Below, piece after piece: positions 5,122 through 56,950 of a stretch of DNA of 64,000 nt. Within the stretch, counting starts at the first letter, position 1. Each line of letters starts with the position of its first letter. The notes under the pieces are model-generated. The model had not been told where the DNA came from and ran no database searches. It saw only the letters and a list, made by a program, of their open reading frames with translations. The translations under genes were made by a program, and so were the position numbers. The stretch comes from Zhaonella formicivorans (lineage in GTDB: Bacteria > Bacillota > DUOV01 > Zhaonellaceae), in the NCBI RefSeq assembly GCF_004353525.1, contig NZ_CP085524.1:1646142-1710141 (forward strand), read 5' to 3'.

Positions 5122-5208
5122 TTATATTTCTTGTAATGTTTTTTCTGATAAACTCCCAATAATAATACTAAAAGGTTCTTCTACTTCAATAGGATAATTA
5201 GAAATCAT
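5122..5208 (-). CDS. Small ORF, possibly the frameshifted tail of the preceding ORF
   Basis: A 28-codon frame (MISNYPIEVEEPFSIIIGSL...) starts inside the end of the 44-codon ORF at 5198-5332 and overlaps it in another frame. There is no separate ribosome site. The two may be one protein of about 70 residues broken by a frameshift near 5205, or a translationally coupled pair. Function unknown. Confidence 0.3.
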   Translation of the reverse strand: MISNYPIEVEEPFSIIIGSLSEKTLQEI

Positions 5209-5332
5209 TTTTCATTTTTCTGACTAATTCTTCTGCATATTCTTGACTTTTTGCAAATAGAATACCTTCAAACTTATTTCGAGCTTTTTTACTATTGATT
5301 TTGTGATAATAAAAATGAACTGAGTAAATCAT
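5198..5332 (-). CDS. Small protein downstream of AbiE pair
   Basis: A 44-codon ORF (MIYSVHFYYHKINSKKARNKF...) has a strong AGGAGG ribosome site seven bases before its ATG, which is why I keep it despite its size. It is Lys/Glu rich with no membrane segment. It lies about 65 bp after the toxin gene abiEii on the same strand and may be part of that transcript. I do not recognise the family. Its end overlaps another short frame, suggesting a possible frameshift. Confidence 0.45.
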   Translation of the reverse strand: MIYSVHFYYHKINSKKARNKFEGILFAKSQEYAEELVRKMKNDF

Positions 5333-5397
5333 AAGTACCTCCTAAAAGCTTGCTATAATTTCGTAATTCTTCTCCTATACTATACCCAATTTCCATC

Positions 5398-7102: not shown

Positions 7103-7156
7103 CTCTATAAATCCAGCGATATTTTCTTTACTTTTAAAGATTTTCAGCCAAATTTT

Positions 7157-7173
7157 AAATAATTATATTATTT
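7157..7173 (-). promoter_or_regulatory. Inverted repeat in abiE promoter
   Basis: AAATAAT-TAT-ATTATTT is a perfect 7-bp inverted repeat with a 3-base centre, about 55 bp before the abiEi ATG in a very AT-rich promoter region. AbiEi antitoxins bind inverted repeats at their own promoter, so this is a reasonable operator candidate. The high AT content lowers the weight of the match. Confidence 0.4.
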
Positions 7174-7255
7174 CTTTAAATATATCACGTTATTCTTTAT
7201 TTACAAAGGTATTTATGAAAATTTTAAAGTGCTAGCAGCAAATAAAACTTGCAGC

Positions 7256-8177
7256 TTATTCGCGTTTTCGCGGCTGCCGTATCTTTAAGGTGATTTTCAG
7301 ATAGTCGTTATAATCCTTTCCGCGTTCGGGTGGCTCATCGGACACGGCGTAGGAGGGCGGGAGGATGGTTTGAATGGCCTTTGCCGCCAGCCGTCCGACC
7401 GTGTCGTTGTCCAAGTGTAAAGCAATTTCCTTGATTTGCGGGAAGTCCTTCAGTATTGCATGAGTGCGGCGGGTGGAGTACTTTCCTCGATTATCTTTTT
7501 CGGCATATAGATTCCTGCAAGGGACAGGTAGTTTTCCTGCCGCCAGTCCCTGCCGGAAAGCAGCTCCAACGTGCCATAGGATAATAAATCAATGGCGCTT
7601 TCAAACAGGTGCAGTTTGCTGCATTCGCTCCTGGCCGGGATAGAGAAGGAGAAATGCTTGTCGCTTCCGTTCACATCCCCCATAAACCGTTTGCCAAACG
7701 TTCCACGGAGAGTAGCGCTGTCCGGCACCTCGTTTTCATGCTTATCCATGTTGAGCAAAATGTTCAGCTTTGCCAGCCGCGCAGATTTGGTTTGAAGCTC
7801 CTGCTCCTTTTCAAAGGGGATGTCAATCTATTCCCTTGCTGTTTCCATCTGCTGGTGAAGCGTTTTCAATTGTTCCCGGCAGTATTCCAGCTTCTTCGGT
7901 ATTTCGGCAAGAGCGTTATTAAGCCTTGTGATGTTACCATGGATGTCCGTGCCTAGTGTGACTGTATGGCTCAGAGCGCCCCTCAGGGTGATCTGATACT
8001 GCTTATTGAAGCCGTCAAAGGAAAACAGCATGGAAAATCCCATGTAGCTGCCCAGCTCCTGCGGTTCCGGCGAGGTCATCAGCTTGCAGGCTTCCAGGAT
8101 GGCCACGCCCGCCTTGGCCTTTTCGGTGTAGTCTATGTCCTTGACGGTCATGCCCGAAAATTTGCTGTCCTCTGTGC
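7256..8177 (-). pseudogene. Broken conjugative-element gene: helicase C-terminus joined to DUF3991-TOPRIM
   Basis: One minus-strand frame reads from about 8177 through a C-terminal piece of the large SNF2-type helicase/methylase of clostridial conjugative elements (TVKDIDYTEKAKAGVAILEACK, then LRGALSHTVTLGTDIHGNITRL). It meets an in-frame TAG at 7828-7830. It continues as NILLNMDKHENEVPD and switches to a DUF3991-like piece (LHLFESAIDLLSYGTLELL). A frameshift near 7450 leads to the TOPRIM end (IALHLDNDTVGRLAAKA). So it is an internal deletion joining two neighbouring genes, plus a stop and a frameshift. The 5' side was cut by the transposon end at 8178. Confidence 0.75.
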
Positions 8178-8448
8178 TGTGAATTTGCAAATTAAAAGGG
8201 ATGACATTTTGCAAAATAAAATGGATTAAAATTAGCTTGAATTTATCGGTTTTTGCGAAATAAATTAGACAAATGGGCAAAATTTTTTCACATAGTCACA
8301 GTATTTTAGTTAAGATTTTTGCCAAAAAAATGCAGCTAGGATGCCCCTAACCGCATTTTGGCATAAACCTTCTTATCAAGAACCATAAGCTACCTATTAC
8401 TCTTTTTAAACCACCCTTACACTGTAGCCTGATGCAGGATGAAGATAA
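8178..8448 (-). mobile_element. Truncated second copy of the TniA/TniB-like transposon (right end)
   Basis: This stretch is an inverted near-copy of 19689-19950. It holds the terminal TGTGAATTTGC end, the AT-rich end-binding region and the last codons of the DUF5348 gene (YLHPASGYSV, compare YLHPASRYSV at the intact copy). It starts at the TGT terminus inside the conjugative-element pseudogene and is cut at 8448 by IS66 copy 1. The remaining ~3.2 kb of this copy is absent. Confidence 0.85.
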
Positions 8449-8532
8449 GTAAGCGTCAAATAATCCACACCTATTAATACAGAACAAAAGTTGAGAAAAT
8501 AGACCTGAACACAAAAATGGAGGTGTTCAGGG

Positions 8533-8830
8533 ATGGACAAAAACCTAGCTGAAATCTGGGAACAACGGCTCAGGGAACATGAGCAAAGTGGCCAAACCAT
8601 TGCCAGCTGGTGCAAACACAACAATATCAGAACCAACCAGTTTTTCTACTGGCGCCGCAAACTACGGCCAGAAAAAAAAGCAAGACCAGCCCCAAATAAA
8701 ATGGATAGCCGTACCTAAAAACCCGGCCAAAACAAGTGGCATAACCATTACCCTTGGGCAAATAAAAATAGAAATAACCCCGGGATTTGACCCAAAGCTG
8801 CTGCGTGAAATCATCGAGGTGCTTACCTAG
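8533..8830 (+). pseudogene. tnpA: IS66 accessory protein TnpA, frameshifted
   Basis: Same gene as the intact 98-residue TnpA at 12818, but a run of eight A (seven in the intact copy) near 8671-8678 shifts the frame. The first part reads MDKNLAEIWEQRLREHEQSG; the remainder (IKWIAVPKNPAKTSGITITL) is in the next frame. The helix-turn-helix region is intact and the tail is lost. Recoding at the A run is conceivable but not needed in copy 2. Confidence 0.85.
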
Positions 8831-8832
8831 CC

Positions 8833-9186
8833 ATGATTAATGAAATTACAAACCAGGAAGTATATCTGGCCTGCGGCAGCACAGATCTTAGAAAATCCAT
8901 AGACAGCCTGGCAGTACTGGTCAAAGAAAGCTTTAACCTGGATCCCTTCAGCCCCTGCTTATTTGTCTTTTGCAACCGCAACCGGGACAAACTAAAGATC
9001 CTGCAGTGGGACCATAACGGTTTCTGGCTCTACTACCGGCGCCTGGAGAAAGGTAAGTTTGACTGGCCAGAAAAAAACACCGATATATTAAGCATCAGCT
9101 ACCGGCAGCTGCGCTGGCTGTTAGATGGCTTATCACTGAAAGAAACCCGGGGCCATCAGGAAGTAAAAGAGCGCACCATAATATAA
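8833..9186 (+). CDS. tnpB: IS66 accessory protein TnpB, altered C-terminus
   Basis: This 117-residue IS66 Orf2 protein (YLACGSTDLRKSIDSLAVLV, FVFCNRNRDKLKILQWD) begins right after tnpA. It differs from copy 2 only at the very end: an extra A near 9168 replaces the tail SAP with ERTII. TnpB is required for IS66 transposition with TnpA and TnpC, though its exact role is unclear. Probably still foldable, but the element as a whole is broken. Confidence 0.85.
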   Translation: MINEITNQEVYLACGSTDLRKSIDSLAVLVKESFNLDPFSPCLFVFCNRNRDKLKILQWDHNGFWLYYRRLEKGKFDWPEKNTDILSISYRQLRWLLDGLSLKETRGHQEVKERTII

Positions 9187-9265
9187 TATAAAGATAATTA
9201 GCGAAAAACGAAGAAAATAGCAAATAAATGGTTAAAAATTCATAAAAACATGCTATAATTAAGGC

Positions 9266-10860
9266 ATGAGTACACAAAACAATTCCGCACTTACAATTGA
9301 AGAATTGACCATAACCATCCAGGCTTTAGAACAGCAGATTGCGGAACTTAATGCTAAACTAAAATGGTATGAAGAACAATTCCGCCTAAGTCGCCAAAAA
9401 CAGTATGGAAGCGCCCGCGCAAAAGACCCCGGCTCAACAAATCAGCCTGTTTAACGAAGCGGAAGATACAGCGAGTCCCCAAGCCAAAGAAGAAACCATA
9501 GAAACCATCACCTACAAGCGGAAGAAAAAACAGCCTGGACAAAAAGCAGAACAGCTCTCCGAACTGCCGGAAGAAATCATCGAATACAGGATTAGCGAAG
9601 AAGAAAAAGTCTGTCCTTGCTGTGGTGGCAAACTGCATGAAATGAGCACTCAGGTCAGGCATGAGCTTAAAGTTATCCCTGCCCAGGTATCAGTAGTAAA
9701 ACATGTCCAGTACATCTATGCCTGCCGGCAGTGTGAAAAAGAAAACATCAAAACCCCGATCATAAAAGCTGAAATGCCAAAACCCCTGCTGCCGGGAACC
9801 TTAGCCTCTCCATCCATACTGGCCTACATAATGGATCAGAAATATACCAACAGCCTGCCGCTCTACCGCCAGGAACAACAGCTATCCCGTCTGGGAATAG
9901 AATTATCCAGGCAAACCATGGCCAACTGGATCTTGGCTGCTGCTAATCCCTGGCAAAATCATATATGACCGCCTGCATGAAAAACTCTTAACCAGAGAAA
10001 TCCTGCACGCTGATGAAACAACCCTGCAGGTACTAAAAGAACCGGGGCGAACAGCAGAAAGCAAATCATACATGTGGCTCTACCGGACAGGAAAAGAAGA
10101 ACCGCCCATAGTCCTTTATGATTATCAAACCACCAGGGCCAGCAAACATGCAGACAAATTTCTCCAGGGATTTAAAGGGTATCTGCAGACAGACGGCTAC
10201 AGCGGATACGGCAAATTAAACGGAGTCACCATAGTCGGCTGCTGGGCCCATGCCAGAAGGAAATTCACCGAAGCATTAAAAGCCCTGCCGCCAGAGCAGA
10301 AAGACAAACCAGTAGCCGCCAAAGTGGGGCTTGAATACTGTAACCGGCTCTTTGCCGTAGAAAGGCAGTTAAAAGAAGCCACTGCCGAAGAACGATATCA
10401 AAAACGGCTGGAAATATCCAAGCCAATATTGGAAGAATTCTACATATGGCTTAAAAAACAAAGACAACAAACGCTGCCCAAAAGCGCATTTGGGCAGGCG
10501 ATAAACTATTGCCTTAACCAATGGGAAGAACTCAATCATTATTTATTAGACGGTAGATTAGAAATAGACAACAACCGGGCGGAGCGCTCGATAAAACCCT
10601 TTGTGATTGGTCGAAAAAATTTTCTGTTTTCCAATACCCCTAGGGGAGCCAAAAGCAGTGCGATAATCTACAGCATAGTTGAGACCGCCAAAGAGAACAA
10701 ACTGAAACCTTATAACTATCTGATACACCTGTTTGAAAAAATGCCAAACCTTGACCTTACAGATCCGGAAATAGTAGACAGCCTGCTGCCCTGGTCAGAA
10801 ACATTGCCTGAAAATGTTAGGATGTCATCTAAGGATAATAATACTGGATTAAAGGCTTAA
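9266..10860 (+). pseudogene. tnpC: IS66 transposase TnpC, frameshifted twice
   Basis: Corresponds to the 531-residue TnpC of copy 2. Base changes near 9413-9424 (CCGCGCAAAAG against CAGCGAAAAG) and a 2-base deletion near 9953 (GGCAAAATC against GGCTAAAAATC) split it into three frames: 9266-9454, 9405-9968 and 10072-10860. The DDE catalytic region is divided, so this copy cannot make active transposase on its own, although copy 2 could act on its ends. Confidence 0.9.
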
Positions 10861-10889
10861 GGGATAGGTGTGTTCTTTTTGACGCTTAC

Positions 10890-12733
10890 ATAAACTGTAC
10901 TTTATGAAGGTGTGTTCCGGCGTTGTGGTGCAGCCGTTTCAATTCCTCATAGGTAGGCTATAAACTTATCTCAGCTGGGGTTTGTTAGAAAATGACATAG
11001 TTTCAATTCCTCATAGGTAGGCTATAAACTCACCTCCTTCCTTAAGGGAATGGAGGGCGAACACGTTTCAATTCCTCATAGGTAGGCTATAAACCTTTTA
11101 TTAGGCAACATTATACCTAATTGGGTTCAATGAGTTTCAATTCCTCATAGGTAGGCTATAAACGTATTGAAAAATGGGTTTCCACACAAAGAAGTGAGTT
11201 TCAATTCCTCATAGGTAGGCTATAAACCGGATATGATGATTAAATAAAATTTTGCTTTTATCAGTTTCAATTCCTCATAGGTAGGCTATAAACATGAATG
11301 GTTAAATAATGTTGGCTATCCTTGGGCAGGTGAGTTTCAATTCCTCATAGGTAGGCTATAAACCTGCATAAAGCACTAAAAAACCAGTCAGCAGTATGCG
11401 TTTCAATTCCTCATAGGTAGGCTATAAACAGTGGCAAATGTCTATTATGTCCTGTATTTCAAAGTGTTTCAATTCCTCATAGGTAGGCTATAAACTACGA
11501 GGGAGGAGATGAGTAAGATGAACGACATATTCGTTTCAATTCCTCATAGGTAGGCTATAAACTAATACCTCTGTTGAGCCTTTTATATATCGCCCACCGA
11601 CGTTTCAATTCCTCATAGGTAGGCTATAAACATCCTGCAATTGATGTAAATATCCTGCTCCTACTTTTGAGTTTCAATTCCTCATAGGTAGGCTATAAAC
11701 CCGTTGTATTCTCGGTATTATTATATTTATAATAGTTTCAATTCCTCATAGGTAGGCTATAAACGTTGAAATCGAAAAAGAATACAAAGAAAAAATTGCA
11801 GTTTCAATTCCTCATAGGTAGGCTATAAACCAGGCGGCTGAGTCATCGGGCCATACAACGGGAAAGTTTCAATTCCTCATAGGTAGGCTATAAACCGCAC
11901 TTATAGCACTGCCAAAGCCCTTGGTCTACGCGTTTCAATTCCTCATAGGTAGGCTATAAACTTGTGAGCGTGAGGAGGAACATGCCAATGACAAAGTTTC
12001 AATTCCTCATAGGTAGGCTATAAACTCCCAGGAGATTTAACTGACTCACCCGGTTTGAGCTGTTTCAATTCCTCATAGGTAGGCTATAAACAAACCCAAT
12101 TTAAACATCATTTTCATACGAAGATTGGGTTTCAATTCCTCATAGGTAGGCTATAAACCCAAATACGAACAAGGCAAAGGGCAGTTAGTTCTCCTGTTTC
12201 AATTCCTCATAGGTAGGCTATAAACGTGCAATGTGACAAGCCAAGCAAGGTAAAAAATGAAAGTTTCAATTCCTCATAGGTAGGCTATAAACGCTTTGGG
12301 ACTTTTCCCCAAGGAGTGAGTATAATGTTGTTTCAATTCCTCATAGGTAGGCTATAAACTGCCGGACGTAAATCCTAATATAGGTGTTAGGTGGAGTTTC
12401 AATTCCTCATAGGTAGGCTATAAACGGCTCCCGGCGGGCCTTAAATAGATTATTTATTTGTCAGTTTCAATTCCTCATAGGTAGGCTATAAACCGACAAA
12501 GGACTGGGCAAGCAGACCAGGTTTGTGGCCGGTTTCAATTCCTCATAGGTAGGCTATAAACCCTACGCCCCTTGGCTAAAACACGCTTTGCCAGGGTTTC
12601 AATTCCTCATAGGTAGGCTATAAACCATGTATTGATTTGGGAGCAAGCAAACGGGCCAGTCCCGTTTCAATTCCTCATAGGTAGGCTATAAACTTGCGGA
12701 GAGCCTCACGGTGCGATTGCGGCTCGAAGGTTT
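10890..12733 (-). CRISPR. Type I-B CRISPR array, leader-distal segment
   Basis: 27 complete 30-bp repeats lie from 10936 to 12693, preceded by the last six bases of a cut repeat (ATAAAC 10890-10895) plus a 40-bp spacer. They are followed by a spacer (12694-12729) and the first four bases (GTTT) of the repeat split by IS66 copy 2. On the plus strand repeats begin GTTTCAATTCC and end GGCTATAAAC. In crRNA orientation (minus) they end in ATTGAAAC, the canonical 8-nt handle. Spacers are about 34-40 bp. All repeats read identical, with no decayed terminal repeat, consistent with the true far end having been removed by IS66 copy 1. Confidence 0.98.
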
Positions 12734-12817
12734 GTAAGCGTCAAATAATCCACACCTATTAATACAGAACAAAAGTTGAGAAAATAGACCTGAACACAAA
12801 AATGGAGGTGTTCAGGG

Positions 12818-13114
12818 ATGGACAAAAACCTAGCTGAAATCTGGGAACAACGGCTCAGGGAACATGAGCAAAGTGGCCAAACCATTGCCAGCTGGTGCAA
12901 ACACAACAATATCAGAACCAACCAGTTTTTCTACTGGCGCCGCAAACTACGGCCAGAAAAAAAGCAAGACCAGCCCCAAATAAAATGGATAGCCGTACCT
13001 AAAAACCCGGCCAAAACAAGTGGCATAACCATTACCCTTGGGCAAATAAAAATAGAAATAACCCCGGGATTTGACCCAAAGCTGCTGCGTGAAATCATCG
13101 AGGTGCTTACCTAG
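12818..13114 (+). CDS. tnpA: IS66 accessory protein TnpA
   Basis: A 98-residue protein has an N-terminal helix-turn-helix-like region (EIWEQRLREHEQSGQTIASWCKHNN) and the IS66 Orf1 pattern (FYWRRKLRP). It starts after GGAGGTGTTCAGGG. It is the first gene of the tnpABC operon and ends two bases before tnpB. Needed with TnpB and TnpC for transposition; DNA binding is inferred from the fold. Confidence 0.92.
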   Translation: MDKNLAEIWEQRLREHEQSGQTIASWCKHNNIRTNQFFYWRRKLRPEKKQDQPQIKWIAVPKNPAKTSGITITLGQIKIEITPGFDPKLLREIIEVLT

Positions 13115-13116
13115 CC

Positions 13117-13464
13117 ATGATTAATGAAATTACAAACCAGGAAGTATATCTGGCCTGCGGCAGCACAGATCTTAGAAAATCCATAGACAGCCTGGCAGTA
13201 CTGGTCAAAGAAAGCTTTAACCTGGATCCCTTCAGCCCCTGCTTATTTGTCTTTTGCAACCGCAACCGGGACAAACTAAAGATCCTGCAGTGGGACCATA
13301 ACGGTTTCTGGCTCTACTACCGGCGCCTGGAGAAAGGTAAGTTTGACTGGCCAGAAAAAAACACCGATATATTAAGCATCAGCTACCGGCAGCTGCGCTG
13401 GCTGTTAGATGGCTTATCACTGAAAGAAACCCGGGGCCATCAGGAAGTAAAGAGCGCACCATAA
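13117..13464 (+). CDS. tnpB: IS66 accessory protein TnpB
   Basis: This 115-residue IS66 Orf2 protein has the family motif YLACGSTDLRKSIDSLA near the start and FCNRNRDKLKILQWDHNGFWLYYRRLEKGKF in the middle. The gene lies immediately after tnpA. It has no identified catalytic residues and is required for IS66 transposition in tested members. Identical to copy 1 except at the last residues. Confidence 0.93.
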   Translation: MINEITNQEVYLACGSTDLRKSIDSLAVLVKESFNLDPFSPCLFVFCNRNRDKLKILQWDHNGFWLYYRRLEKGKFDWPEKNTDILSISYRQLRWLLDGLSLKETRGHQEVKSAP

Positions 13465-13548
13465 TATAATATAAAGATAATTAGCGAAAAACGAAGAAAA
13501 TAGCAAATAAATGGTTAAAAATTCATAAAAACATGCTATAATTAAGGC

Positions 13549-15144
13549 ATGAGTACACAAAACAATTCCGCACTTACAATTGAAGAATTGACCATAACCA
13601 TCCAGGCTTTAGAACAGCAGATTGCGGAACTTAATGCTAAACTAAAATGGTATGAAGAACAATTCCGCCTAAGTCGCCAAAAACAGTATGGAAGCGCCAG
13701 CGAAAAGACCCCGGCTGAACAAATCAGCCTGTTTAACGAAGCGGAAGATACAGCGAGTCCCCAAGCCAAAGAAGAAACCATAGAAACCATCACCTACAAG
13801 CGGAAGAAAAAACAGCCTGGACAAAAAGCAGAACAGCTCTCCGAACTGCCGGAAGAAATCATCGAATACAGGATTAGCGAAGAAGAAAAAGTCTGTCCTT
13901 GCTGTGGTGGCAAACTGCATGAAATGAGCACTCAGGTCAGGCATGAGCTTAAAGTTATCCCTGCCCAGGTATCAGTAGTAAAACATGTCCAGTACATCTA
14001 TGCCTGCCGGCAGTGTGAAAAAGAAAACATCAAAACCCCGATCATAAAAGCTGAAATGCCAAAACCCCTGCTGCCGGGAACCTTAGCCTCTCCATCCATA
14101 CTGGCCTACATAATGGATCAGAAATATACCAACAGCCTGCCGCTCTACCGCCAGGAACAACAGCTATCCCGTCTGGGAATAGAATTATCCAGGCAAACCA
14201 TGGCCAACTGGATCTTGGCTGCTGCTAATCCCTGGCTAAAAATCATATATGACCGCCTGCATGAAAAACTCTTAACCAGAGAAATCCTGCACGCTGATGA
14301 AACAACCCTGCAGGTACTAAAAGAACCGGGGCGAACAGCAGAAAGCAAATCATACATGTGGCTCTACCGGACAGGAAAAGAAGAACCGCCCATAGTCCTT
14401 TATGATTATCAAACCACCAGGGCCAGCAAACATGCAGACAAATTTCTCCAGGGATTTAAAGGGTATCTGCAGACAGACGGCTACAGCGGATACGGCAAAT
14501 TAAACGGAGTCACCATAGTCGGCTGCTGGGCCCATGCCAGAAGGAAATTCACCGAAGCATTAAAAGCCCTGCCGCCAGAGCAGAAAGACAAACCAGTAGC
14601 CGCCAAAGTGGGGCTTGAATACTGTAACCGGCTCTTTGCCGTAGAAAGGCAGTTAAAAGAAGCCACTGCCGAAGAACGATATCAAAAACGGCTGGAAATA
14701 TCCAAGCCAATATTGGAAGAATTCTACATATGGCTTAAAAAACAAAGACAACAAACGCTGCCCAAAAGCGCATTTGGGCAGGCGATAAACTATTGCCTTA
14801 ACCAATGGGAAGAACTCAATCATTATTTATTAGACGGTAGATTAGAAATAGACAACAACCGGGCGGAGCGCTCGATAAAACCCTTTGTGATTGGTCGAAA
14901 AAATTTTCTGTTTTCCAATACCCCTAGGGGAGCCAAAAGCAGTGCGATAATCTACAGCATAGTTGAGACCGCCAAAGAGAACAAACTGAAACCTTATAAC
15001 TATCTGATACACCTGTTTGAAAAAATGCCAAACCTTGACCTTACAGATCCGGAAATAGTAGACAGCCTGCTGCCCTGGTCAGAAACATTGCCTGAAAATG
15101 TTAGGATGTCATCTAAGGATAATAATACTGGATTAAAGGCTTAA
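13549..15144 (+). CDS. tnpC: IS66 transposase TnpC
   Basis: This 531-residue protein has full family length. Residues 5-45 form a coiled coil ([20 protein letters not shown]). A zinc-finger pair VCPCCGG and YACRQCE lies near residues 120 and 165. The DDE core has [10 protein letters not shown] (first D near 245), [10 protein letters not shown] (second D near 310) and [22 protein letters not shown] (E near 440). It cuts and joins the element ends. It is the only intact TnpC here and could mobilise copy 1 in trans. Preceded by a -10-like TATAAT near 13536. Confidence 0.96.
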
Positions 15145-15173
15145 GGGATAGGTGTGTTCTTTTTGACGCTTAC

Positions 15174-16453
15174 GAAGGTTTCAATTCCTCATAGGTAGGC
15201 TATAAACAATAGTAGCGGGGATAGCTATTGAGGTGAAGGAAAGTCGTTTCAATTCCTCATAGGTAGGCTATAAACTTGGACTCGACATACCGAAAGCAGT
15301 TTTGGAAAGTGAAGGTTTCAATTCCTCATAGGTAGGCTATAAACGAGGCAAAAGCCGCGGGGATAATCACCGAAGATCAGTTTCAATTCCTCATAGGTAG
15401 GCTATAAACTTTAGTTCGCAAGATTGCCCCTTATACATACCAAGGTTTCAATTCCTCATAGGTAGGCTATAAACTTGATGAAATTACCAAGCATGAAGGA
15501 TGGGAAATGTTTCAATTCCTCATAGGTAGGCTATAAACCAATTATCTGGACAGATGGAAGCGATTTATATGAGTTTCAATTCCTCATAGGTAGGCTATAA
15601 ACTAATATATACATTTTACTTTCCTTTCAATTTCACAGTTTCAATTCCTCATAGGTAGGCTATAAACCATGGCTTTAGTTTGTCTGCTGATGAAGTCAAG
15701 GGTTGTTTCAATTCCTCATAGGTAGGCTATAAACTTCATACAAAAAGAAAAAGCCACTCAAGAAGAGCGGCGTTTCAATTCCTCATAGGTAGGCTATAAA
15801 CTTTTGCGATAATAGTGCTCTTCTAACTCCGGAGCGGTTTCAATTCCTCATAGGTAGGCTATAAACTCAAGAGTATTAGTGCAGCCGAGGGATTTGATTG
15901 TTTGTTTCAATTCCTCATAGGTAGGCTATAAACTCGAGCTTGCTTTGGCCTATATCGAGTTGGATAGAGGTTTCAATTCCTCATAGGTAGGCTATAAACC
16001 TAATTTAAACGCAGATATGGTAGACGGTGTTCATAGTTTCAATTCCTCATAGGTAGGCTATAAACAGGAGCCGGGAATGTGCCAGTGGGAAATACGGCAA
16101 AGTTTCAATTCCTCATAGGTAGGCTATAAACCTGAGTTAACGACCGAGTTTTAAGCTTAAAATATACTGTTTCAATTCCTCATAGGTAGGCTATAAACGA
16201 AAGATAGAAAATGCCATCAAAGAAGAAAATAAGCAGTTTCAATTCCTCATAGGTAGGCTATAAACGAACTTATCGGCGTTATGCTGGACCATTACCCGGT
16301 GTTTCAATTCCTCATAGGTAGGCTATAAACCCTTAATGCACATTTGGCAGATAATACAAAACACGGTTTCAATTCCTCATAGGTAGGCTATAAACTGCCG
16401 GACGCAGCAGTAGAACAAATTGCTTCAGACCTGTTTCAATTCCTCATAGGTAG
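15174..16453 (-). CRISPR. Type I-B CRISPR array, middle segment
   Basis: 19 complete repeats lie from 15178 to 16395, then a repeat at 16433-16453 cut after 21 bases by the transposon that begins at 16454. Repeat sequence is the same as in the other segments, with spacers of about 34-39 bp. The spacer at 16066-16101 shares 16 bp, in reverse complement, with the spacer at 20373-20409. The segment is bounded by two mobile elements, so transcription from the leader must cross 3.5 kb of transposon to reach it. Confidence 0.98.
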
Positions 16454-16568
16454 TGTAAACTTTTAATTTATCTACTCCAAAACCGGAGTAGATTTTTCAT
16501 TTTCTATTTACCTTTAAGGCTAAGCATCCCTAATTTTATTTGATATAATTTTGTCAAAGTGAATTAGG

Positions 16569-17123
16569 GTGAGCATCTTGCAAATACTTTACGACTTTAA
16601 AATCAGTATGACCAAATACATTAAACTAGGCATAGAGAATCATTTCCCGGCATTTGAAGTATGCCCTAGCTGCAAAGCTAAAGTAAAACTAAAAAGGCAT
16701 GGCTTTTACTGGAGATATATACACCTCATAAAGAAGGCAGTAAAAGTACCGGTTTGCAGGTATTTCTGCCCCTCCTGCTGTAAAACTATTTCCCTGTTGC
16801 CGATCTTCCTATTACCCTACTATCAGCTACCTCTAAGAGTGATTATGAAATTAATCCAATGCGCTGCATCAGGTAAACAGGTTCTTCTAAACCTGAAACG
16901 CCAGCATCTACAGTTCATTAAAAAAAGATTTATGAATAACTTAAACTGGATAGAGGCCTTTTTTAGGGATAAGGGTTACGGCGGTTATATTATGCAGGAT
17001 AAAAAAGAAAAAGCCATGAAGCTCATGGATTTGATTAACACTGCAGCCACAGTGGAAACCTTCAGCCAAAGGTTTCATAATCACTTCCTAAGAGCGTTCA
17101 TGGCCCAACCAAATGCAAATTAA
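16569..17123 (+). CDS. DUF6431-like zinc-ribbon protein of the transposon
   Basis: A 184-residue protein starts at GTG. The N-terminal half has two CxxC pairs (EVCPSCKAK near 33 and YFCPSCCK near 63), forming a zinc ribbon like those of DNA-binding transposon proteins. The remainder is basic with a LIQCAASGKQ helix. Proteins of this kind accompany the same transposase/AAA+ pair in other clostridial elements; a target-site or end-binding role is inference. No catalytic motif is seen. Confidence 0.6.
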   Translation: MSILQILYDFKISMTKYIKLGIENHFPAFEVCPSCKAKVKLKRHGFYWRYIHLIKKAVKVPVCRYFCPSCCKTISLLPIFLLPYYQLPLRVIMKLIQCAASGKQVLLNLKRQHLQFIKKRFMNNLNWIEAFFRDKGYGGYIMQDKKEKAMKLMDLINTAATVETFSQRFHNHFLRAFMAQPNAN

Positions 17124-17268
17124 TTTTACTACAAAAAGCGTTAAAAATTAAGTTAAATCTTGAACCACATAACTTTTGCGTGGAGCCACGGTCTTTCTTC
17201 CTCTAAAATGTTTTTTGAGAGTTTCTAGCCGGCTAGCTACAAAAAAACATTATGAGGAGTAAGAAAAA

Positions 17269-17679
17269 ATGGATGAAAAAGAAAGAGAAGCAGTTGCCCT
17301 ATTTCGTTACGGCCTAATTGCGCCCATTTTAAATGGACAGGTTACCAGTCAAAAAGACTATCTAGCTCAAATTGCTAGTCACGCCCATGATGTGCCCCAC
17401 TACGGCGTAAAAGAATTTGCCCCTAAAACGATAGAATTTTGGGTTAAAGCATATCGTAGATGTGGTTTTGAGGGATTAAAGCCTAAGGGTCGGTCTGATA
17501 AAGGTTCTGTAAGAAACATCCCCGAAGAATTGAAAGAAAAAATTTTGGCTTTGCGTAGCGAACATCGGGAACTGAATGTAACGTTGTTTTATGAAAAACT
17601 GGTTAAAGATGCACTCTTTTTGCCTCAAAATATCTCATACTCGACCCTATATAGGTTCCTAAAAATGAAGGGCTGGTAG
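17269..17679 (+). pseudogene. Transposase N-terminal half, frame broken at 3' end
   Basis: A 136-residue frame carries the DNA-binding N-terminal domains of an integrase-type transposase (FRYGLIAPILNGQ, KTIEFWVKAYRRCGFEGLKPKGRSDKG, SYSTLYRFLKMKG). It ends at TAG. The -1 frame continues directly as GLVGKVETKSPDRKRFSYEE into the catalytic half. A one-base loss in the A run near 17663-17668 would explain this. A programmed -1 shift is possible, but the site is not a classical slippery heptamer. Confidence 0.75.
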
Positions 17680-17729
17680 GGAAAGTAGAAACTAAATCTC
17701 CCGACAGAAAAAGATTCAGTTATGAAGAA

Positions 17730-18533
17730 GTGAACATACTTTGGCAAGGCGATATGGCAGTAGGCCCCTATATTATTGTTTCCGGTAAAAAGGTTAGGAC
17801 AAATCTATTTGCTTTTATTGATGATTGTTCAAGGCTTGTTCCCTATGCTGAGTTCGTTTTATCCGAGAAATTTGATTCCCTAAAGCATGTGTTTAAAGAA
17901 GCATTAATACGTAGAGGCATTCCTAAGATGATCTATGTGGATAACGGTAAAGTATACAAATCGGACCAGTTTAGCATAGCATGTGCTTCGTTAGGTATCA
18001 CCTTAATTCATACCAAACCCTATGATGCGGCAAGTAAAGGGAAAATCGAACGTTTTTTCGGTACCGTACGCCAGAGGTTCTTGCCTACTTTAACTAAAGA
18101 TGCTCTTACTTCAATCGAGACCTTAAACCAAGCCTTTTGGCGTTGGCTGGAGGAAGATTATCATCGAAAGGTTCATTCCGCTCTTGAGATGAGCCCACTA
18201 GACATGTTTATGTCTCAGTTTAGCCGGGTAAAAATGATAGATAACCCCAAAGCTTTGGACGCCCTTTTCTTAAAAAGAGAAAAGCGTAAGGTTAAGCATG
18301 ATGGCACTATCTCAATTAATTCCTTGCTTTTTGAAGTGCCTCCCCAGTTTATTGGGCAACAAATCGAGGTTCGTTTTGATCCTGAAAAACTAGAACAGGT
18401 GTTTATCTATGTAGAGGGGAAAGAAGTGGCCAAAGCTTTGCCTGTAATTTACAGTGATAACGCCAGAATTAAAAGGGAAAAAAAGGCAAAAGGAAAAAGA
18501 AGAAGCCGCGCTATCCTTTCAGGAAATGTATGA
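17730..18533 (+). CDS. Transposase catalytic half (DDE/integrase core)
   Basis: This 267-residue rve-type core has acidic residues in GDMAVGPYI (first D near residue 8 of this frame), YVDNGKVYKSDQF (second D) and SKGKIERFFGTVRQRF (E). It is followed by a beta-barrel-like C-terminal segment (FEVPPQFIGQQIEVRFDPEKLEQVFIYVEGK) typical of Mu/TniA-like transposases. As an independent ORF it lacks the DNA-binding N-terminus, which sits in another frame just upstream. It is followed 18 bp later by its AAA+ partner. Confidence 0.85.
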   Translation: MNILWQGDMAVGPYIIVSGKKVRTNLFAFIDDCSRLVPYAEFVLSEKFDSLKHVFKEALIRRGIPKMIYVDNGKVYKSDQFSIACASLGITLIHTKPYDAASKGKIERFFGTVRQRFLPTLTKDALTSIETLNQAFWRWLEEDYHRKVHSALEMSPLDMFMSQFSRVKMIDNPKALDALFLKREKRKVKHDGTISINSLLFEVPPQFIGQQIEVRFDPEKLEQVFIYVEGKEVAKALPVIYSDNARIKREKKAKGKRRSRAILSGNV

Positions 18534-18551
18534 TTCCAGGGAGGGAACATA

Positions 18552-19352
18552 ATGTATAGAGCATTTTACTCTCTAAGCAGAAAACCATTTACCAAAGAAA
18601 TTGAGACAAAGCACCTTTTTCCCTCTAAAAGCTTTACTGAATTAATGGCACGGCTTAATTACCTTAAAGATTCAAGGGGCATTGGGGTGGTAGTGGGTGA
18701 GCCTGGTGCCGGTAAAACTTCTGTCCTCAGAAACTTTGCTTTAAGCTTAAATCCCTCACTTTACAAAGTTATTTATTTTCCTTTGTCTACAGGTACGGTG
18801 ATGGATTTTTACCGGGGACTGTGCTATGGGCTAGGTGAAGAACCTACCTTTAGAAAAGTTGATCTATTTAAGCAAATTCAAGAGGGAGTAACCAGCCTAT
18901 TTTATGAAAAAAAGATAACTCCTGTATTTATTCTAGATGAAATGCAGTTATCTGACAAGACCTCTCTAAATGACTTAAGCATCCTGTTTAATTTTACAAT
19001 GGATTCGGATAATCCGTTTATTTTGGTATTGGCGGGATTGCCTTATCTACTGGATCGTTTAGCTTTATCCCATAATCAGTCGTTAAATCAGCGTATTATC
19101 ATGCGTTACAAGGTCACACCCTTAGATAAAGAAGAGGTGAAAAACTATATCTTACATCACCTGGAGTTAGCAGGTGCTAAATTTGAAATATTTTCTCCAC
19201 AAGCAGTGGAGGCTATTGCCACCCGTTCTAGGGGATGGCCAAGACTCATCAACAATTTAGCTACTAACTGCCTGCTTTATGGGTGCCAGAAAAGACTTGA
19301 ATGTATTGATGAAGAGGCGGTAATTAAATCTGCTCAGGAAGCAGGTCTTTAA
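18552..19352 (+). CDS. AAA+ ATPase of the transposon (TniB/ExeA-like)
   Basis: This 266-residue AAA+ protein has Walker A GEPGAGKTS near residue 48, Walker B VFILDEMQ near 130 and an arginine-rich sensor region (SLNQRIIMRYKV). The start MYRAFYSLSRKPFTKEI is typical of ExeA/TniB-like ATPases that pair with DDE transposases and direct target choice (MuB, TnsC and TniB analogues). A GGGAGG ribosome site lies 6 bases before the ATG. Complete. Confidence 0.88.
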   Translation: MYRAFYSLSRKPFTKEIETKHLFPSKSFTELMARLNYLKDSRGIGVVVGEPGAGKTSVLRNFALSLNPSLYKVIYFPLSTGTVMDFYRGLCYGLGEEPTFRKVDLFKQIQEGVTSLFYEKKITPVFILDEMQLSDKTSLNDLSILFNFTMDSDNPFILVLAGLPYLLDRLALSHNQSLNQRIIMRYKVTPLDKEEVKNYILHHLELAGAKFEIFSPQAVEAIATRSRGWPRLINNLATNCLLYGCQKRLECIDEEAVIKSAQEAGL

Positions 19353-19505
19353 ACTTAAGAACTACGGCTGCTTAAAAAAACTGGGCAGATTGATAGATTA
19401 ATTCGCCCTGCTGCTAAAGAAAATGGTATGTGAGGCTTATGATATGACAAAGCCACATATCCTTCACTGTTAGGCATCTGCCCGAGGAGGGAGGCTTAAA
19501 TTAAA

Positions 19506-19733
19506 ATGCTAAAACAAGGTAAACTATTATACTCTAGCCAAAAGGACCGTTGGGAGATCCATGGAATAGACGACGAACCTTTCTCTCTACACTGTGGGGA
19601 ATGCTTTGAGATTAAGGTTGGGGAAACATTCTTGCCTTGTCGTATTGAAATAGATAGGGATTGGGTATTGTACTTTGCTAACTCTATGTTTTATCTGCAT
19701 CCGGCATCAAGGTACAGTGTAAGAGGGGTTTAG
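19506..19733 (+). CDS. DUF5348-like small protein of the transposon
   Basis: A 75-residue protein (LLYSSQKDRWEIHG, FSLHCGECFEIKVGE, CRIEIDRDWVLYF, YLHPASRYSVRGV), beta-rich with no catalytic motif, matches the DUF5348 pattern as I recall it. AGGAGGGAGG lies 11 bases before the ATG. The last codons also occur in the truncated copy near 8406-8440, showing it travels with the element. Role unknown. Confidence 0.6.
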   Translation: MLKQGKLLYSSQKDRWEIHGIDDEPFSLHCGECFEIKVGETFLPCRIEIDRDWVLYFANSMFYLHPASRYSVRGV

Positions 19734-19950
19734 AAAGAGTGATTCTTGGCAGAGGAATATATGTCAGAATGCGGTTAGGGGCATCCTAGCTGCATTTTTT
19801 TTTTGGCAAAAATCTTAACTAAAATACTGTGACTATGTGAAAAAATTTTGCCCATTTGGCTAATTTATTTCGCAAAAACCGATAAATTCAAGCTAATTTT
19901 AATCCATTTTATTTTGCAAAATGTCATCCCTTTTAATTTGCAAATTCACA

Positions 19951-20570
19951 AGGTAGGCTATAAACCCAATTCGTATCATGGATAATGTTGCAAGAGAAAA
20001 AGCTAGTTTCAATTCCTCATAGGTAGGCTATAAACGGCATTTAGCCACACCCCGCTTTCGAAGTCATCCCATGGTTTCAATTCCTCATAGGTAGGCTATA
20101 AACTAGCAAGTGATCTAAGCTATACCTTATTGCCTTGTCAAGTTTCAATTCCTCATAGGTAGGCTATAAACGTTTAATCTCCTCTATAGCCTGCTTTACA
20201 TCATCGTTTCAATTCCTCATAGGTAGGCTATAAACAGGCTGCGGCATTGAAGTAGCGGAAGTCGCAGAAGCCGTGTTTCAATTCCTCATAGGTAGGCTAT
20301 AAACTCTGTTGCAAGGCGTGAGTTAGCAGCTGCAACAGTAGGGTTTCAATTCCTCATAGGTAGGCTATAAACCACATTCCCGGCTCCTCCGTTTAGCAAG
20401 AGGTTGCTAGTTTCAATTCCTCATAGGTAGGCTATAAACCCGTGAACAGTAGGGGTAAAGCTGGCAGGCTTGCCGAGTTTCAATTCCTCATAGGTAGGCT
20501 ATAAACGCGTCCCGTCTGCTCAAGCCGGGCCTGATGCGAAGTTTCAATTCCTCATAGGTAGGCTATAAAC
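19951..20570 (-). CRISPR. Type I-B CRISPR array, leader-proximal segment
   Basis: It starts with the last 15 bases of the transposon-split repeat (19951-19965), then nine complete repeats from 20006 to 20570. The last repeat (20541-20570) borders the leader, so spacers here are the youngest. In crRNA orientation transcription enters from the high-coordinate side. Nine complete spacers between full repeats plus one beside the split repeat are likely the only ones still directly served by the leader promoter. Confidence 0.97.
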
Positions 20571-50554: not shown

Positions 50555-50812
50555 CTACAGCAAATTTTTCGGCAGCAGAAATTTGCGCAACGCAGGATAG
50601 ACCTCATGCTTATTCTTGATTGTAACTGTAACACAATTAGAATCACTGTTTTTCTTCAGAGCCGCCATCAAGGTTTTGGTGCGATAATAGGGATTGACAA
50701 TTTCTCCATAGCAAAAAAGATTGCAGAGGGGCAAGATCTTTTGAACCAGTTCCAGGCATTTATCATTATCCGAAGGCAAGTTGTCGCCGTCAGAAAGCTG
50801 ATTTCTCCCCAT
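50555..50812 (-). pseudogene. Truncated copy of yhbH (C-terminal 75 codons)
   Basis: An 85-codon frame. From SDGDNLPSDN onward it is a close copy of the last quarter of YhbH at 51417 (ELVQKILPLCNL, INPYYRT-type segment, TVTIKNKHEVYPALRKFL). The N-terminal three quarters, including the VWA-like domain, are missing. Its start ATGGGGAGAAAT is formed from the GGGGAGAAATC ribosome site of a leader shared with the ferredoxin-type gene. The piece is therefore a fusion of a foreign leader to a yhbH tail. Several substitutions show it is not a recent copy. Function unlikely. Confidence 0.85.
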
Positions 50813-50915: not shown

Positions 50916-50992
50916 AATATTGTTTTAATAATAATGGAATAATATACCAATATTTTTGGGAATATACTGTTGATTTCAGGTTACAATATAAA

Positions 50993-51400
50993 CAGGAACA
51001 TAACGGTTGAGCCAAGATCCATGTATGATCCGGTCCGGGTCGTATATGGGTCTGCCAAAGATTGCATACAGGTCGCAGGGCCTGTATGCAGTCGGAGGGC
51101 AGATTCTATACGGTAGGGAAAGGCTCTGCTGCAGTCGTATCTTAAAACTGTTATGATTGCAGTAGGGTCCCAACCTATCGTATAGGGTCGAGCGAAGATC
51201 GTACAGGGTGCCGCAGGTTTTAACTAATTAACGGTCGTATGCAGCCGAGAGGTTGCATACGGCTGTACAGGTATCCTGTACGGTCGAACGAACCATTATT
51301 GCAGGTGGTGAACTGCTTGGTTATGGTCGCAAGATCATAGCTTGGTAATAAGCCATCTGCAGTAGTGCAAGGTAGACCGTTATGTTCCCGTTTTATTTTT
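50993..51400 (+). ncRNA. Large multi-arm structured RNA candidate
   Basis: About 395 nt without an ORF are closed by a perfect 13-bp outer stem (50995-51007 with 51376-51388), followed by T-rich CGTTTTATTTTTTT on the plus strand. Inner arms: 51016-51030/51038-51052 (15 pairs, 4 G-T); 51060-51072/51081-51093 (13 pairs); 51102-51117/51174-51189 (16 pairs) enclosing 51126-51139/51152-51165 (14 pairs); 51197-51207/51275-51285 (11) enclosing 51234-51243/51254-51263 (10); 51295-51304/51357-51366 (10) enclosing 51321-51328/51333-51340 with a GCAA tetraloop. The wobble pairs I checked are all G-U on the plus strand only, which favours RNA over a DNA palindrome. A TACAAT box at 50981-50986 is a possible -10. 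I do not recognise the class. Confidence 0.8.
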
Positions 51401-51416
51401 TTATATTTTTTCGTGG

Positions 51417-52547
51417 TTATGGCCGCAGGAATTTACACAATGCCGGGTACACCTCATTTTTATCCTTGATGGTAACTGTTACAAAATTTGGGTCATCGAT
51501 CTTCTTCAGCGCCGCCATCAAGGTGCTGGTGCGATAATAAGGATTGATAATTTCTCCATAGCCAAAGAGATTGCAGAGAGGCAGGATCTTTTGAATCAGT
51601 TCCAGGCATTTCTCATTATCCGAAGGCAAATTGTCGCCGTCAGAGAAATGAAAAGGGTACAAATTATATTCCCTGGGGTTAAAACGTTCATTGATAATTT
51701 CCAGTGCCAGCTGGTAAACCGAAGAACACCTGGTGCCGCCGCTCTCTCCCTTGGTGAAAAATTCCTCCTCACTCACTTCTTTTGCTCTGGTGTGGTGAGC
51801 CAAAAATATAATCTGCACATTTTCATACTTGGTGCGCAAGAAACGCACCATCCAGAAAAAAAAGCTGCGGGCTATGTATTTTTCAAACACACCCATGGAG
51901 CCGGAAGTATCCATCATTGCTAACACTACGGCGCTGGTCTGCTCTTTTACATCTGCGTCCCAGGTTTTAAACATCACATCCTCGGGAGTGATTTTATTGT
52001 GCTCCTTGTCACCCCTTAAAGAGCGCCGCTTCAAACACTGCAGCACGGTTCTTTTCTTATCTACGTTAGCCATGAGCCCTGTTTTGCGCACATCTTTATA
52101 TTGGCTCGACTCGGCAAGTAAAAGCTGCTTTTTTGTTTCCTTCAGGTTGGGCAAATGCAAATCCTCGAAAATCATTTCTTCCAGTTCATCCAGAGTCACT
52201 TCCGCTTCATAGTAATCATCACCCGGCTCGTCACCGGCCCCTTTGCCTTCTTTCGTACCTAAACTGCTGCCCAACACATCCCCCTCTTGCGTTTGTCCTT
52301 TCCCCTGGCCCACATGCTTATTCTTTTCCAGGCTGAAGCGAATGCGATATTCTTCCAGGGACCTGACCGGAACTTTGATGATCTTGTTGCCCTCCGCCAT
52401 GATTATGTTTTCTTCACTGATAATTTCGGGTAAGTTTTTTCTAATCACTTCCTTGATTCTTTCCAGATGTCTCTTTTGGTCCAGATAAGCCTGGCGGCAG
52501 AGGGACCAGTCCTGGCGGGAAACAAAAAATTCCGGCAATTGTCTCAC
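51417..52547 (-). CDS. yhbH: YhbH/DUF444 family protein
   Basis: This 376-residue DUF444 protein has an acidic middle linker (near 100-120), a VWA-like domain with the metal site AMMDTSGSMG near residue 220, FLAHHTRAKEV and HFSDGDNLPSDN near 305. It is a sporulation-associated partner of PrkA kinase in Bacillus-type clusters; the molecular role is unclear. It begins 26 bp after prkA. Full length, unlike the nearby truncated copy. Confidence 0.94.
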   Translation of the reverse strand: MRQLPEFFVSRQDWSLCRQAYLDQKRHLERIKEVIRKNLPEIISEENIIMAEGNKIIKVPVRSLEEYRIRFSLEKNKHVGQGKGQTQEGDVLGSSLGTKEGKGAGDEPGDDYYEAEVTLDELEEMIFEDLHLPNLKETKKQLLLAESSQYKDVRKTGLMANVDKKRTVLQCLKRRSLRGDKEHNKITPEDVMFKTWDADVKEQTSAVVLAMMDTSGSMGVFEKYIARSFFFWMVRFLRTKYENVQIIFLAHHTRAKEVSEEEFFTKGESGGTRCSSVYQLALEIINERFNPREYNLYPFHFSDGDNLPSDNEKCLELIQKILPLCNLFGYGEIINPYYRTSTLMAALKKIDDPNFVTVTIKDKNEVYPALCKFLRP

Positions 52548-54731: not shown

Positions 54732-54749
54732 TTGTGACAAATATCACAA
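54732..54749 (+). promoter_or_regulatory. Perfect CRP/FNR-type palindrome upstream of the decahaem cytochrome
   Basis: TTGTGA-CAAATA-TCACAA is a perfect 6-6-6 palindrome of the CRP/FNR superfamily type, about 72 bp before the first likely ATG of the cytochrome gene. The region 54467-54820 is otherwise non-coding. An imperfect version occurs at 46322. Control by an oxygen-, CO- or cAMP-type family member is inferred, not shown. Confidence 0.65.
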
Positions 54750-54820
54750 TGTTTATCCAAATTAACCTGATTTATGACAGCTTTGCTTGCTATTTTAAAC
54801 CGAAAGGAGGTGTAAAAAAT

Positions 54821-56950
54821 ATGAAGATAAAAGGCAAGCATCTCAATACCAAAAAGGAGGAAAAAACAATGACAAGAAAATCCATAATCTTGACAGCATG
54901 TTTATTATTTGCCGCTGTCTGTGCCTTAGCGTTGGTAAATGTATACGAAGCTGATGCAAAAGCCAGCTTTGGTGGCAACTGTTTTGCTTCCGGCTGTCAT
55001 AAGGCAGGAGTTGCACCAACTAAAGATTCTGTGCAAGCAGCCAAACCAGCGCAACCTGCGGCGCCGGCAAAAAGCAGCACACCGGCAAAAAGCAGTGCTC
55101 CTGCAAAACCCTCAGCTACTAAGCCTGCTGCTGCCCAACTGCCAGCCGCCAAAACAGCCACTTTAAAAATTAACGACAAAGCTGAAAAAGTTTTGATGGT
55201 TAACGGAACTACCCTGGTTCCTGTGGCCAAGATCTCAGAAATAGCTAAAGTTTCTCCTGTCTGGGATGGAACAAAGAAAACTATTACCATTAAGTCAGCA
55301 TCTACTACCATTGTTCTGACAGTAGGCAAAGATACAGCGGTTGTCAACGGGCAAGAAATAAAGCTTGAGGCCGCAGCCCGTGAAACTGCCGGCGTATCCT
55401 ACGCACCGTTGCGCTTTATTGCTGAAAAATTAGGACTTAAGGTGGACTTTGCCAACAACAGCATAAAGGTGTATAAACCCATCCCCACTCCTCAGGAGGC
55501 GTTAATCTCCAACAATTACGTGGGATCAGAAACTTGTGGCACCTGCCACCCCGATGCTTACAAAGAATGGAATAACAATCACGGCAACTTCGCCAAAGAT
55601 GTTTCTAAAGATCCTTCTGCCCTGAAAGGCAACTTTGAAGGTAACTACCCCAAAGCCATCGGTTTTGGCAAAAATGACATTCAATATGCCTTAAACACCC
55701 AAGAAGACGGGTTATTACACGGACAGGAATTAGTCGGCAAGAGGGGAACATTTGGCGTTCCGGCTGATGACTATCCGGTAATGTGGTCTACTTGGAATAT
55801 GAAAGATAAAGAATGGGAAACCGAGGTAGAGGCTTGGGGTGAAGGCACTCCGTGGTTATCCACCTGTGCCGGTTGCCATGTGACCAACATCCAGGTGCCC
55901 ACTGCAGGCAAGCCGGATACTCCCAAAGGATTCTTCGAACTGGGAATCGCTTGTGAAAACTGCCATGGCCCCGGAAAAGAACATGCTTCCAACCCGACTA
56001 AAGACAATATCATTGTAAGTTCAAATGCGGCTAACTGCGGCCAGTGCCATACAAGAGGTGCTTCAGCAGCTAAAAGGCCGGATGGTAAAACTTATGGCTA
56101 CCCATATAGTGAAGAAAAAGGCAACTATGAAGCAGGTATGGACCTGGCAGAATTTTATACCCATGTAAGCCTGGATGATGTAAAATCCTTCTGGCCAACA
56201 GGCCATGCCAGGAACTCCCACCATGTTCAATATCCGGAGTGGCTGGCTACAGATCATAGCAAAGCGTTGGAAGACTTAAAAACTAACGACCATGCCACCG
56301 ATGAATGCTTGGGATGTCACTCGGCTGATTATATCACCGCAAAAGAAGGCAATAAGCCTACTTTGCAAACAGCACAAGAGGGCCTGTCCTGTCAGGCTTG
56401 CCATGACTCCCATAACCCGACCCAATTCAGAACTGCCAAGGAAGAGTTGTGCGGCAGCTGCCATAACGCGGAAGGCGCCACTGTAGGCTCTGCAGTCCAT
56501 CACCCGCAAAAAGAATTAAATGAGGGGCTCATCGGTGTCGGAGTAGAGCTGAAGCCAAGCGTTATGGCAGAAGCCGGCGTCAACTGTATTGATTGCCATA
56601 TGCCCAAAACTACAGGACCCGACCCAAGCCATAACATGCATATAGTAACACCTAAAGTGGCCCAAGAATACGGCATGCCCAATGATTCCTGTATGGGTTG
56701 CCATCCGGGAGCTAAACCGGAATATATCCAAGCCCGCTTGGATAAGTGGCAGTCTGACGTTAAAGCCGAGCTTGAGGCAGTTGGGGCTCTAATCGAAGCA
56801 AAAGCTTCCTTTAAAGATAACCAGGCTTACAAAGAAGCTAAATTCAACTATGATATCGTGCTGCAAGACGGCAGCACCGGCGCACACAACTATGAGTTAG
56901 CCATGGATTTGCTCAAAGCGGCAAAAGAAAGATTAAACAGCTTAAAATAA
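54821..56950 (+). CDS. Decahaem cytochrome c with copper-amine-oxidase-like N-terminal domain
   Basis: About 709 residues. The signal peptide core is SIILTACLLFAAVCALALV. An unusual CX4CH site (CFASGCH) follows, then an Ala/Pro/Lys-rich linker, a beta-rich copper-amine-oxidase N1-like domain (MVNGTTLVPVAKIS...VSYAPLRFIAEKLGLKV) and a C-terminal half with nine CxxCH motifs (CGTCH, CAGCH, CENCH, CGQCH, CLGCH, CQACH, CGSCH, CIDCH, CMGCH). The architecture is typical of exported or cell-wall multihaem cytochromes of Peptococcaceae-type bacteria. Two in-frame ATGs have good ribosome sites: 54821 (AAAGGAGGTG) and 54869 (AAAGGAGG). The only plus-strand non-transposon gene of note, with its own terminator. 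Confidence 0.92.
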   Translation: MKIKGKHLNTKKEEKTMTRKSIILTACLLFAAVCALALVNVYEADAKASFGGNCFASGCHKAGVAPTKDSVQAAKPAQPAAPAKSSTPAKSSAPAKPSATKPAAAQLPAAKTATLKINDKAEKVLMVNGTTLVPVAKISEIAKVSPVWDGTKKTITIKSASTTIVLTVGKDTAVVNGQEIKLEAAARETAGVSYAPLRFIAEKLGLKVDFANNSIKVYKPIPTPQEALISNNYVGSETCGTCHPDAYKEWNNNHGNFAKDVSKDPSALKGNFEGNYPKAIGFGKNDIQYALNTQEDGLLHGQELVGKRGTFGVPADDYPVMWSTWNMKDKEWETEVEAWGEGTPWLSTCAGCHVTNIQVPTAGKPDTPKGFFELGIACENCHGPGKEHASNPTKDNIIVSSNAANCGQCHTRGASAAKRPDGKTYGYPYSEEKGNYEAGMDLAEFYTHVSLDDVKSFWPTGHARNSHHVQYPEWLATDHSKALEDLKTNDHATDECLGCHSADYITAKEGNKPTLQTAQEGLSCQACHDSHNPTQFRTAKEELCGSCHNAEGATVGSAVHHPQKELNEGLIGVGVELKPSVMAEAGVNCIDCHMPKTTGPDPSHNMHIVTPKVAQEYGMPNDSCMGCHPGAKPEYIQARLDKWQSDVKAELEAVGALIEAKASFKDNQAYKEAKFNYDIVLQDGSTGAHNYELAMDLLKAAKERLNSLK

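Follow-up and report, generated by a model that had tools for sequence, protein, structure and literature searches.

What kind of element occupies positions 50993-51400 of the 64,000-nucleotide (nt) stretch of the Zhaonella formicivorans genome analysed here (contig NZ_CP085524.1; hereafter the window)? An initial annotation had proposed a multi-branched structured RNA of unrecognised class. We show that the element, referred to below as the spore RNA, represents a conserved RNA class with a six-way-junction architecture, a definable distribution and a characteristic pattern of wobble pairs. The family occurs in hundreds of spore-forming bacteria and is chromosomal, not phage-borne. As for what it does, the reading that we prefer, at a probability of roughly 0.55, is that of a new class of trans-acting architectural RNA of about 400 nt, multivalent and produced by endospore-forming Bacillota in their forespores.

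Structure of the RNA

The plus strand of 50993-51393 has a predicted minimum free energy of -235.5 kcal/mol, as compared with -123.4 ± 6.1 for 100 dinucleotide shuffles, none of which folded as low (z -18.3). When both strands of the 64 kb were scanned in 400-nt tiles, the RNA gave the lowest value (-222.6), the next unrelated tile reaching -163.5. Since 32 of the 155 predicted pairs are G-U on the plus strand and none is A-C, this is the folding strand, as the initial annotation had argued from the wobbles; the minus strand of the region folds to only -138 kcal/mol. No plausible open reading frame (ORF) covers the RNA, the opposite strand carrying only a mechanical TTG frame of 65 codons.

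The fold is a six-way junction in which a closing stem, P0, and five arms, A1 to A5, together comprise nine helices of about 14-18 bp each. P0 pairs 50995-51008 with 51375-51388 over 14 bp, that is, the perfect 13-bp stem already recognised in the initial annotation (50995-51007/51376-51388) plus one U-G pair, and 12 of its 16 consensus pairs are compensated in homologues. The five long arms described there were likewise recovered, each by the fold and by covariation in homologues. A1 (51015-51053) is an 18-bp hairpin and A2 (51060-51093) one of 15 bp, flanked by GCC (51054-51056) and GGC (51098-51100). The other three are nested, with an outer and an inner helix each: A3 (51102-51189) has an outer helix of 16 bp (51102-51117/51174-51189) and an inner one of 18 bp (51122-51139/51152-51169); in A4 (51197-51285) a 16-bp outer helix is followed by a small side hairpin, which varies, and by a 16-bp inner helix (51231-51246/51251-51266) with a GAGA tetraloop (51247-51250) at its tip; and A5 (51294-51367) has an outer helix of 16 bp (51294-51309/51352-51367) and an inner helix closed by the GCAA tetraloop, of the GNRA type, that had been noticed earlier (51329-51332). 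Across the family the tips of arms 4 and 5, with their GNRA loops, are conserved, and the loops of arms 1-3 vary. A junction linker at 51186-51196, GGTCGAGCGAA (family form GGUCGAGCNAAG), corresponds to near-invariant alignment columns; sister linkers lie between all the arms, and the conserved linkers are purine-rich, GAGCNAAG. The T-rich sequence expected 3' of the closing stem is present (51389-51412) and probably serves for intrinsic termination. In many homologues the predicted folds place a separate terminator hairpin, with a T tract, just downstream of the closing stem.

Homologues and covariation

None of the 4227 families of Rfam 15 matched the window region, and below the thresholds only chance-level matches appeared; among 27 homologous loci, 12 had no Rfam match and 15 matched tRNAs only. 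DNA similarity searches gave nothing useful, even within the same family or in phage and plasmid records. Structure-based search was the sole approach that recovered homologues. As the initial annotation had suggested, a new covariance model was built (R1, arms 3-4, from the window sequence alone), and it recovered the RNA in 80 of the 299 phylum genomes, its full-length matches scoring as high as 167 bits. A second model, R2 (arms 4-5), matched 39/160 genomes of Negativicutes, 60/147 of Clostridiaceae and 8/200 in a sample of the class Bacilli, four of the latter strongly. Named isolates carrying the RNA include Moorella mulderi, Sporomusa malonica and Thermoanaerobacterium saccharolyticum. 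Genomes have up to eight copies, usually one; that of Z. formicivorans has a single full copy by DNA search as well as by R1.

An alignment of 46 sequences analysed with RNAalifold returned the same six-way junction. Preservation of the stems in homologues had been named beforehand as a point on which the proposal could fail, and the stems are preserved: 97.1% of cells pair, as against 75.9% after shuffling and 31-43% in versions slid by 1-3 columns. Changes on both sides occur at 112 of the 141 pairs, with 1389 doubly changed cells versus 387 in shuffled alignments. R2 further gives low-scoring matches over arms 1-3; in other words, the arms represent variations on a single module. At three loci (L093, L095, L097) arm 3 is built differently or the number of arms appears changed, and these may form a subfamily.

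As an independent check, a DNA pattern was drawn from the linkers around arms 1-3 only, with no overlap with the R2 arms. It matched at least 120 stretches across the genome collection and no contig among 2.9 million viral ones; by blastn, the RNA was likewise unmatched in 50,697 phage records and in plasmid records. Of 40 pattern loci that had not been scored before, R2 matched 38, almost always with at least 49 bits; the Bacillus sp. EB600 locus scored weakly (34 bits) and the Paucibacter locus gave no match. Among those of the first 80 pattern loci that were tested, R2 gave no match at those labelled Myxococcaceae or Thermoanaerobaculales, or at one in a deltaproteobacterial metagenome-assembled genome. 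A 174-bit copy was observed in an assembly of this kind labelled Deltaproteobacteria (L212); this is probably a binning error, possibly a transfer.

The completeness of the pairing bears on the idea of a forespore small RNA (sRNA) that would regulate by antisense pairing, as a functional counterpart of CsfG. Almost the entire molecule is paired and covarying, and its conserved unpaired parts are short purine-rich linkers, unlike the C-rich regions of CsfG; this reading was rejected as improbable. Group I and group II introns were also rejected, there being no intron core, exon context or Rfam match.

Conserved wobble spacing

Across the 46 homologues, counted over consensus pairs, 25.9% of pair cells are G-U and only 0.5% A-C, so that only one strand folds. 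The same wobble is kept in at least 60% of the sequences at 23 pairs and in at least 80% at 20 pairs; the 920 cells of the latter comprise 829 wobbles, 63 G-C and 15 A-U pairs. The spacing of these wobbles is fixed. In all seven helices that have both in the right order, the distance from a U-G to the next G-U, of opposite polarity, is exactly 9 bp, and wobbles of the same polarity recur at 11 bp in P0, A2, the inner helices of A3 and A4, and both helices of A5. Eleven bp corresponds roughly to a single turn of A-form RNA. Each helix therefore bears, on roughly one face, two wobbles related by two-fold symmetry (5'-U-N8-G-3' in either strand). Such regularity would be due neither to chance nor to mere tolerance of wobbles; shared ancestry of the arms might explain their likeness, yet not the retention of the wobbles. 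We infer that the repeated wobble face may be a repeated docking site.

Promoter and association with sporulation

The -10-like box that had been noted upstream of the closing stem is present, in a promoter of the forespore type (sigma-F/sigma-G) rather than the sigma-A type. The best fit places a -35 element, GAATA, at 50960-50964, 17 nt before a -10 element, TACAATA, at 50982-50988 (family consensus CATAATA/CATACTA), with a predicted start at about 50994-50997; 9 of 11 consensus positions are matched. Over 104 homologues the best fit, each sequence contributing the site that fits best, is G(T/A/C)ATA, 17 nt (74/104), CA(T/A)AATA. The -35 element sits 51-55 nt before the first linker, and the spacing from promoter to closing stem is conserved. 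With strict patterns for the Bacillus consensus, taken from general knowledge, sigma-G sites were found in 18 of the 104 homologues (shuffled mean 0.22, maximum 2) and sigma-F sites in 17 (mean 0.23, maximum 3), sigma-A-like sites being at the shuffled level (2 versus 1.8). One or the other forespore type was matched strictly in 32/104, as compared with 0/118 downstream flanks and 3/1353 ORF upstream regions of the same loci. In a further set, which shares some of its Negativicutes members with the first, sigma-G sites preceded 9/20 copies in Negativicutes, 5/21 in Clostridiaceae and 2/4 in Bacilli (shuffled means at most 0.08). Together with the downstream hairpins and T tracts, these sites argue strongly that the RNA would be transcribed as its own unit by sigma-G and/or sigma-F in the forespore, ending at its own terminator.

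The distribution points in the same direction. In the phylum sample SpoIVA (PF09547) is encoded by 79 of the 80 genomes with the RNA and by 169 of the 219 without it (Fisher p 5e-7, shared ancestry ignored). Among Negativicutes, where 51 of 160 genomes are SpoIVA-positive overall, the figures are 35/39 and 16/121 (p 1e-18, with the same proviso). Z. formicivorans itself has SpoIVA. The RNA is almost confined to spore-formers, without being universal among them.

Forespore timing, as read from the promoter, would also suit a decoy or hibernation RNA that titrates or inactivates the forespore polymerase, the ribosome or an RNA-binding protein in the manner of 6S RNA, and repeated, near-identical arms would be apt for titration. 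Against this, an open bubble like that of 6S RNA is absent, as is any Rfam match, and nine covarying helices with six conserved linkers exceed what a decoy needs. We consider such a role unlikely.

Genomic context

In the window the RNA gene is convergent with a DUF444 (yhbH-like) gene, itself beside prkA. Both yhbH and prkA are linked to sporulation in Bacillus. The final 231 nt of the DUF444 gene are duplicated at 50571-50801 and 51421-51651 (84% identical), flanking the RNA gene, and it looks as if the RNA had arrived with its own copy of the gene end. The RNA was not found in two other genomes examined from the family of Z. formicivorans, which makes a horizontal gain by this organism, or a loss in its two relatives, plausible.

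No recurrent partner gene emerged from clustering of the neighbouring proteins or from a Pfam scan of the 95 nearest neighbours, which gave 109 Pfam families, none of them matched by more than five proteins. In 44 of 59 loci the gene downstream runs antiparallel to the RNA. The lack of a recurrent neighbour family, the antiparallel downstream genes and the RNA's own hairpin and T tract together point to a free-standing, trans-acting gene. A riboswitch or other cis-acting leader lies 5' of the gene it regulates and is co-directional with it. Although a terminator-like T tract or hairpin would be expected of a riboswitch or attenuator too, the opposite strand of so many downstream genes, the convergence of the window copy with yhbH and the absence of a recurring neighbour family contradict this reading, which was rejected and to which we assign a negligible probability.

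Equally negligible in our estimate is the notion of a palindrome or mobile repeat acting at the DNA level and not as RNA. The long imperfect palindromes, the multiple copies in some genomes and the duplicated yhbH end around the window copy would accord with it. The pairs nevertheless bear the mark of single-strand folding, the promoter is conserved, no transposase is present, most genomes have one copy, and the viral, phage and plasmid collections searched gave no match; this candidate, too, was rejected.

Where copies are clustered, inspection revealed no common gene, and no partner is proposed on that account. One such locus in Negativicutes (L301; G312:C1:2450000-2469900) has five R2 matches, one strong and four weak, within about 10 kb; it is surrounded by genes for small proteins without Pfam matches, apart from one with a weak match to DUF637 (possible hemagglutinin). 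Two clusters in Clostridiaceae (L294, L295) adjoin AAA-ATPase/PD-(D/E)XK genes. Elsewhere in the window, 5023-20570 contains several arrays of clustered regularly interspaced short palindromic repeats sharing a common repeat (RF01315), three blocks totalling about 55 full repeats and a further, weaker repeat on its own. At 54734-56950 lies an ORF of 738 codons that has several matches to cytochrome c domains, along with a copper amine oxidase N-terminal domain; molybdopterin oxidoreductases are encoded nearby.

Proposed role

In the architectural reading that we favour, forespore sigma factors would transcribe the RNA gene as a separate unit, and the dyad-symmetric wobble face of every helix would be one docking site used repeatedly. 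A site so repeated would make the RNA a multivalent scaffold, on which copies of a single protein, or else further RNA helices, would be assembled into an ordered particle. This particle would enter the dormant spore, where it might protect some of the translation or RNA machinery or keep it in reserve. The RNA is envisaged as probably a structural component of the spore that has not been listed before. The fuller proposition, namely a large RNA class dedicated to endospores, with nine helices bearing the same wobble face at every turn and assembling with itself or with one protein into a spore-packed particle, we would put at about even odds.

Several points weigh against the architectural reading. 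The case for forespore expression comes from promoter sequences, the best-fit table selects its own sites, and the strict patterns match a minority of homologues, the remainder deviating at one or two positions. The Fisher tests treat related genomes as independent. Five RNA-positive genomes lack SpoIVA, one of them 80% complete and with a weak match (G120) and four of unknown completeness (G337, G344, G371, G428). No RNA match was obtained in 169 of the 248 SpoIVA-positive genomes of the phylum sample, so that the RNA is not essential for sporulation generally. Finally, neither the clustering nor the scan of neighbours yielded a partner protein.

The last point would accord with a particle of RNA only, in which the RNA would multimerise in the manner of ROOL and GOLLD, its wobble faces and GNRA loops packing copy on copy into a cage or lattice in the spore with no dedicated protein. 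RNA-only homo-oligomers are known for ornate multi-arm RNAs (PMC12286853), and two GNRA loops with a 9/11-bp wobble repeat would suit helix-helix packing. No conserved kissing loop was identified, however, conservation among the loops being limited to the tips of arms 4 and 5, and the phage linkage of the ROOL and GOLLD RNAs is not shared by the spore RNA. This alternative is possible, if doubtful, and clearly more probable in our estimation than a decoy.

A large and strongly conserved RNA of spore-formers is thus absent from Rfam, and the open literature searched does not describe it. That search covered large bacterial, clostridial and forespore RNAs and found nothing fitting, supplements and subscription journals lying outside it, so that an earlier mention is possible; the available portions of two structured-RNA surveys, of 26 and 50 bacterial genomes, contain no such motif (PMC8632094, PMC11109978). 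The RNA would tie a large structured molecule to the forespore, where the RNAs described so far are small ones that have no known targets, and the 9/11-bp wobble ruler offers a direct, mutable handle on how one face of an RNA helix may be marked for docking.

Comparison with known RNAs

The initial annotation had likened the element to OLE, ROOL and GOLLD, a comparison that is apt for size and ornateness, although no homology was found: the Rfam models for ROOL, GOLLD, OLE and raiA gave no match above the gathering score in the window and the 27 homologous loci. ROOL and GOLLD are likewise large, free-standing bacterial RNAs, multi-branched and with extensive covariation, whose cellular function is unknown. 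They are longer (GOLLD often exceeding 800 nt) and are found in phages and prophages, in many cases close to tRNA islands (PMC12286853). The spore RNA differs in being chromosomal, in its forespore promoter and in the absence of an Rfam match or of phage carriage in the records searched; one locus in Bacilli (L226) has tRNAs on the same contig. OLE, of about 600 nt, is a large ornate RNA of Gram-positive anaerobes and extremophiles (PMC12054373).

Three further RNAs have been connected with sporulation. The raiA motif, or ModT RNA, differs in architecture from the spore RNA, whose loci match no Rfam family; it is a conserved structured RNA of Bacillota that has been studied in relation to sporulation (PMC11706538). 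6S RNA is free-standing, structured and linked to sporulation timing (PMC9147052), but consists of a long hairpin with a central open bubble that mimics a promoter, in place of which the spore RNA has a six-way junction. CsfG is a forespore-specific RNA under sigma-F/sigma-G (PMC9147052, PMC8216469). The spore RNA resembles it in its predicted forespore promoter of the same type; CsfG, however, belongs to the small sRNAs and contains C-rich regions, whereas the spore RNA is an almost fully paired six-way junction of 400 nt.
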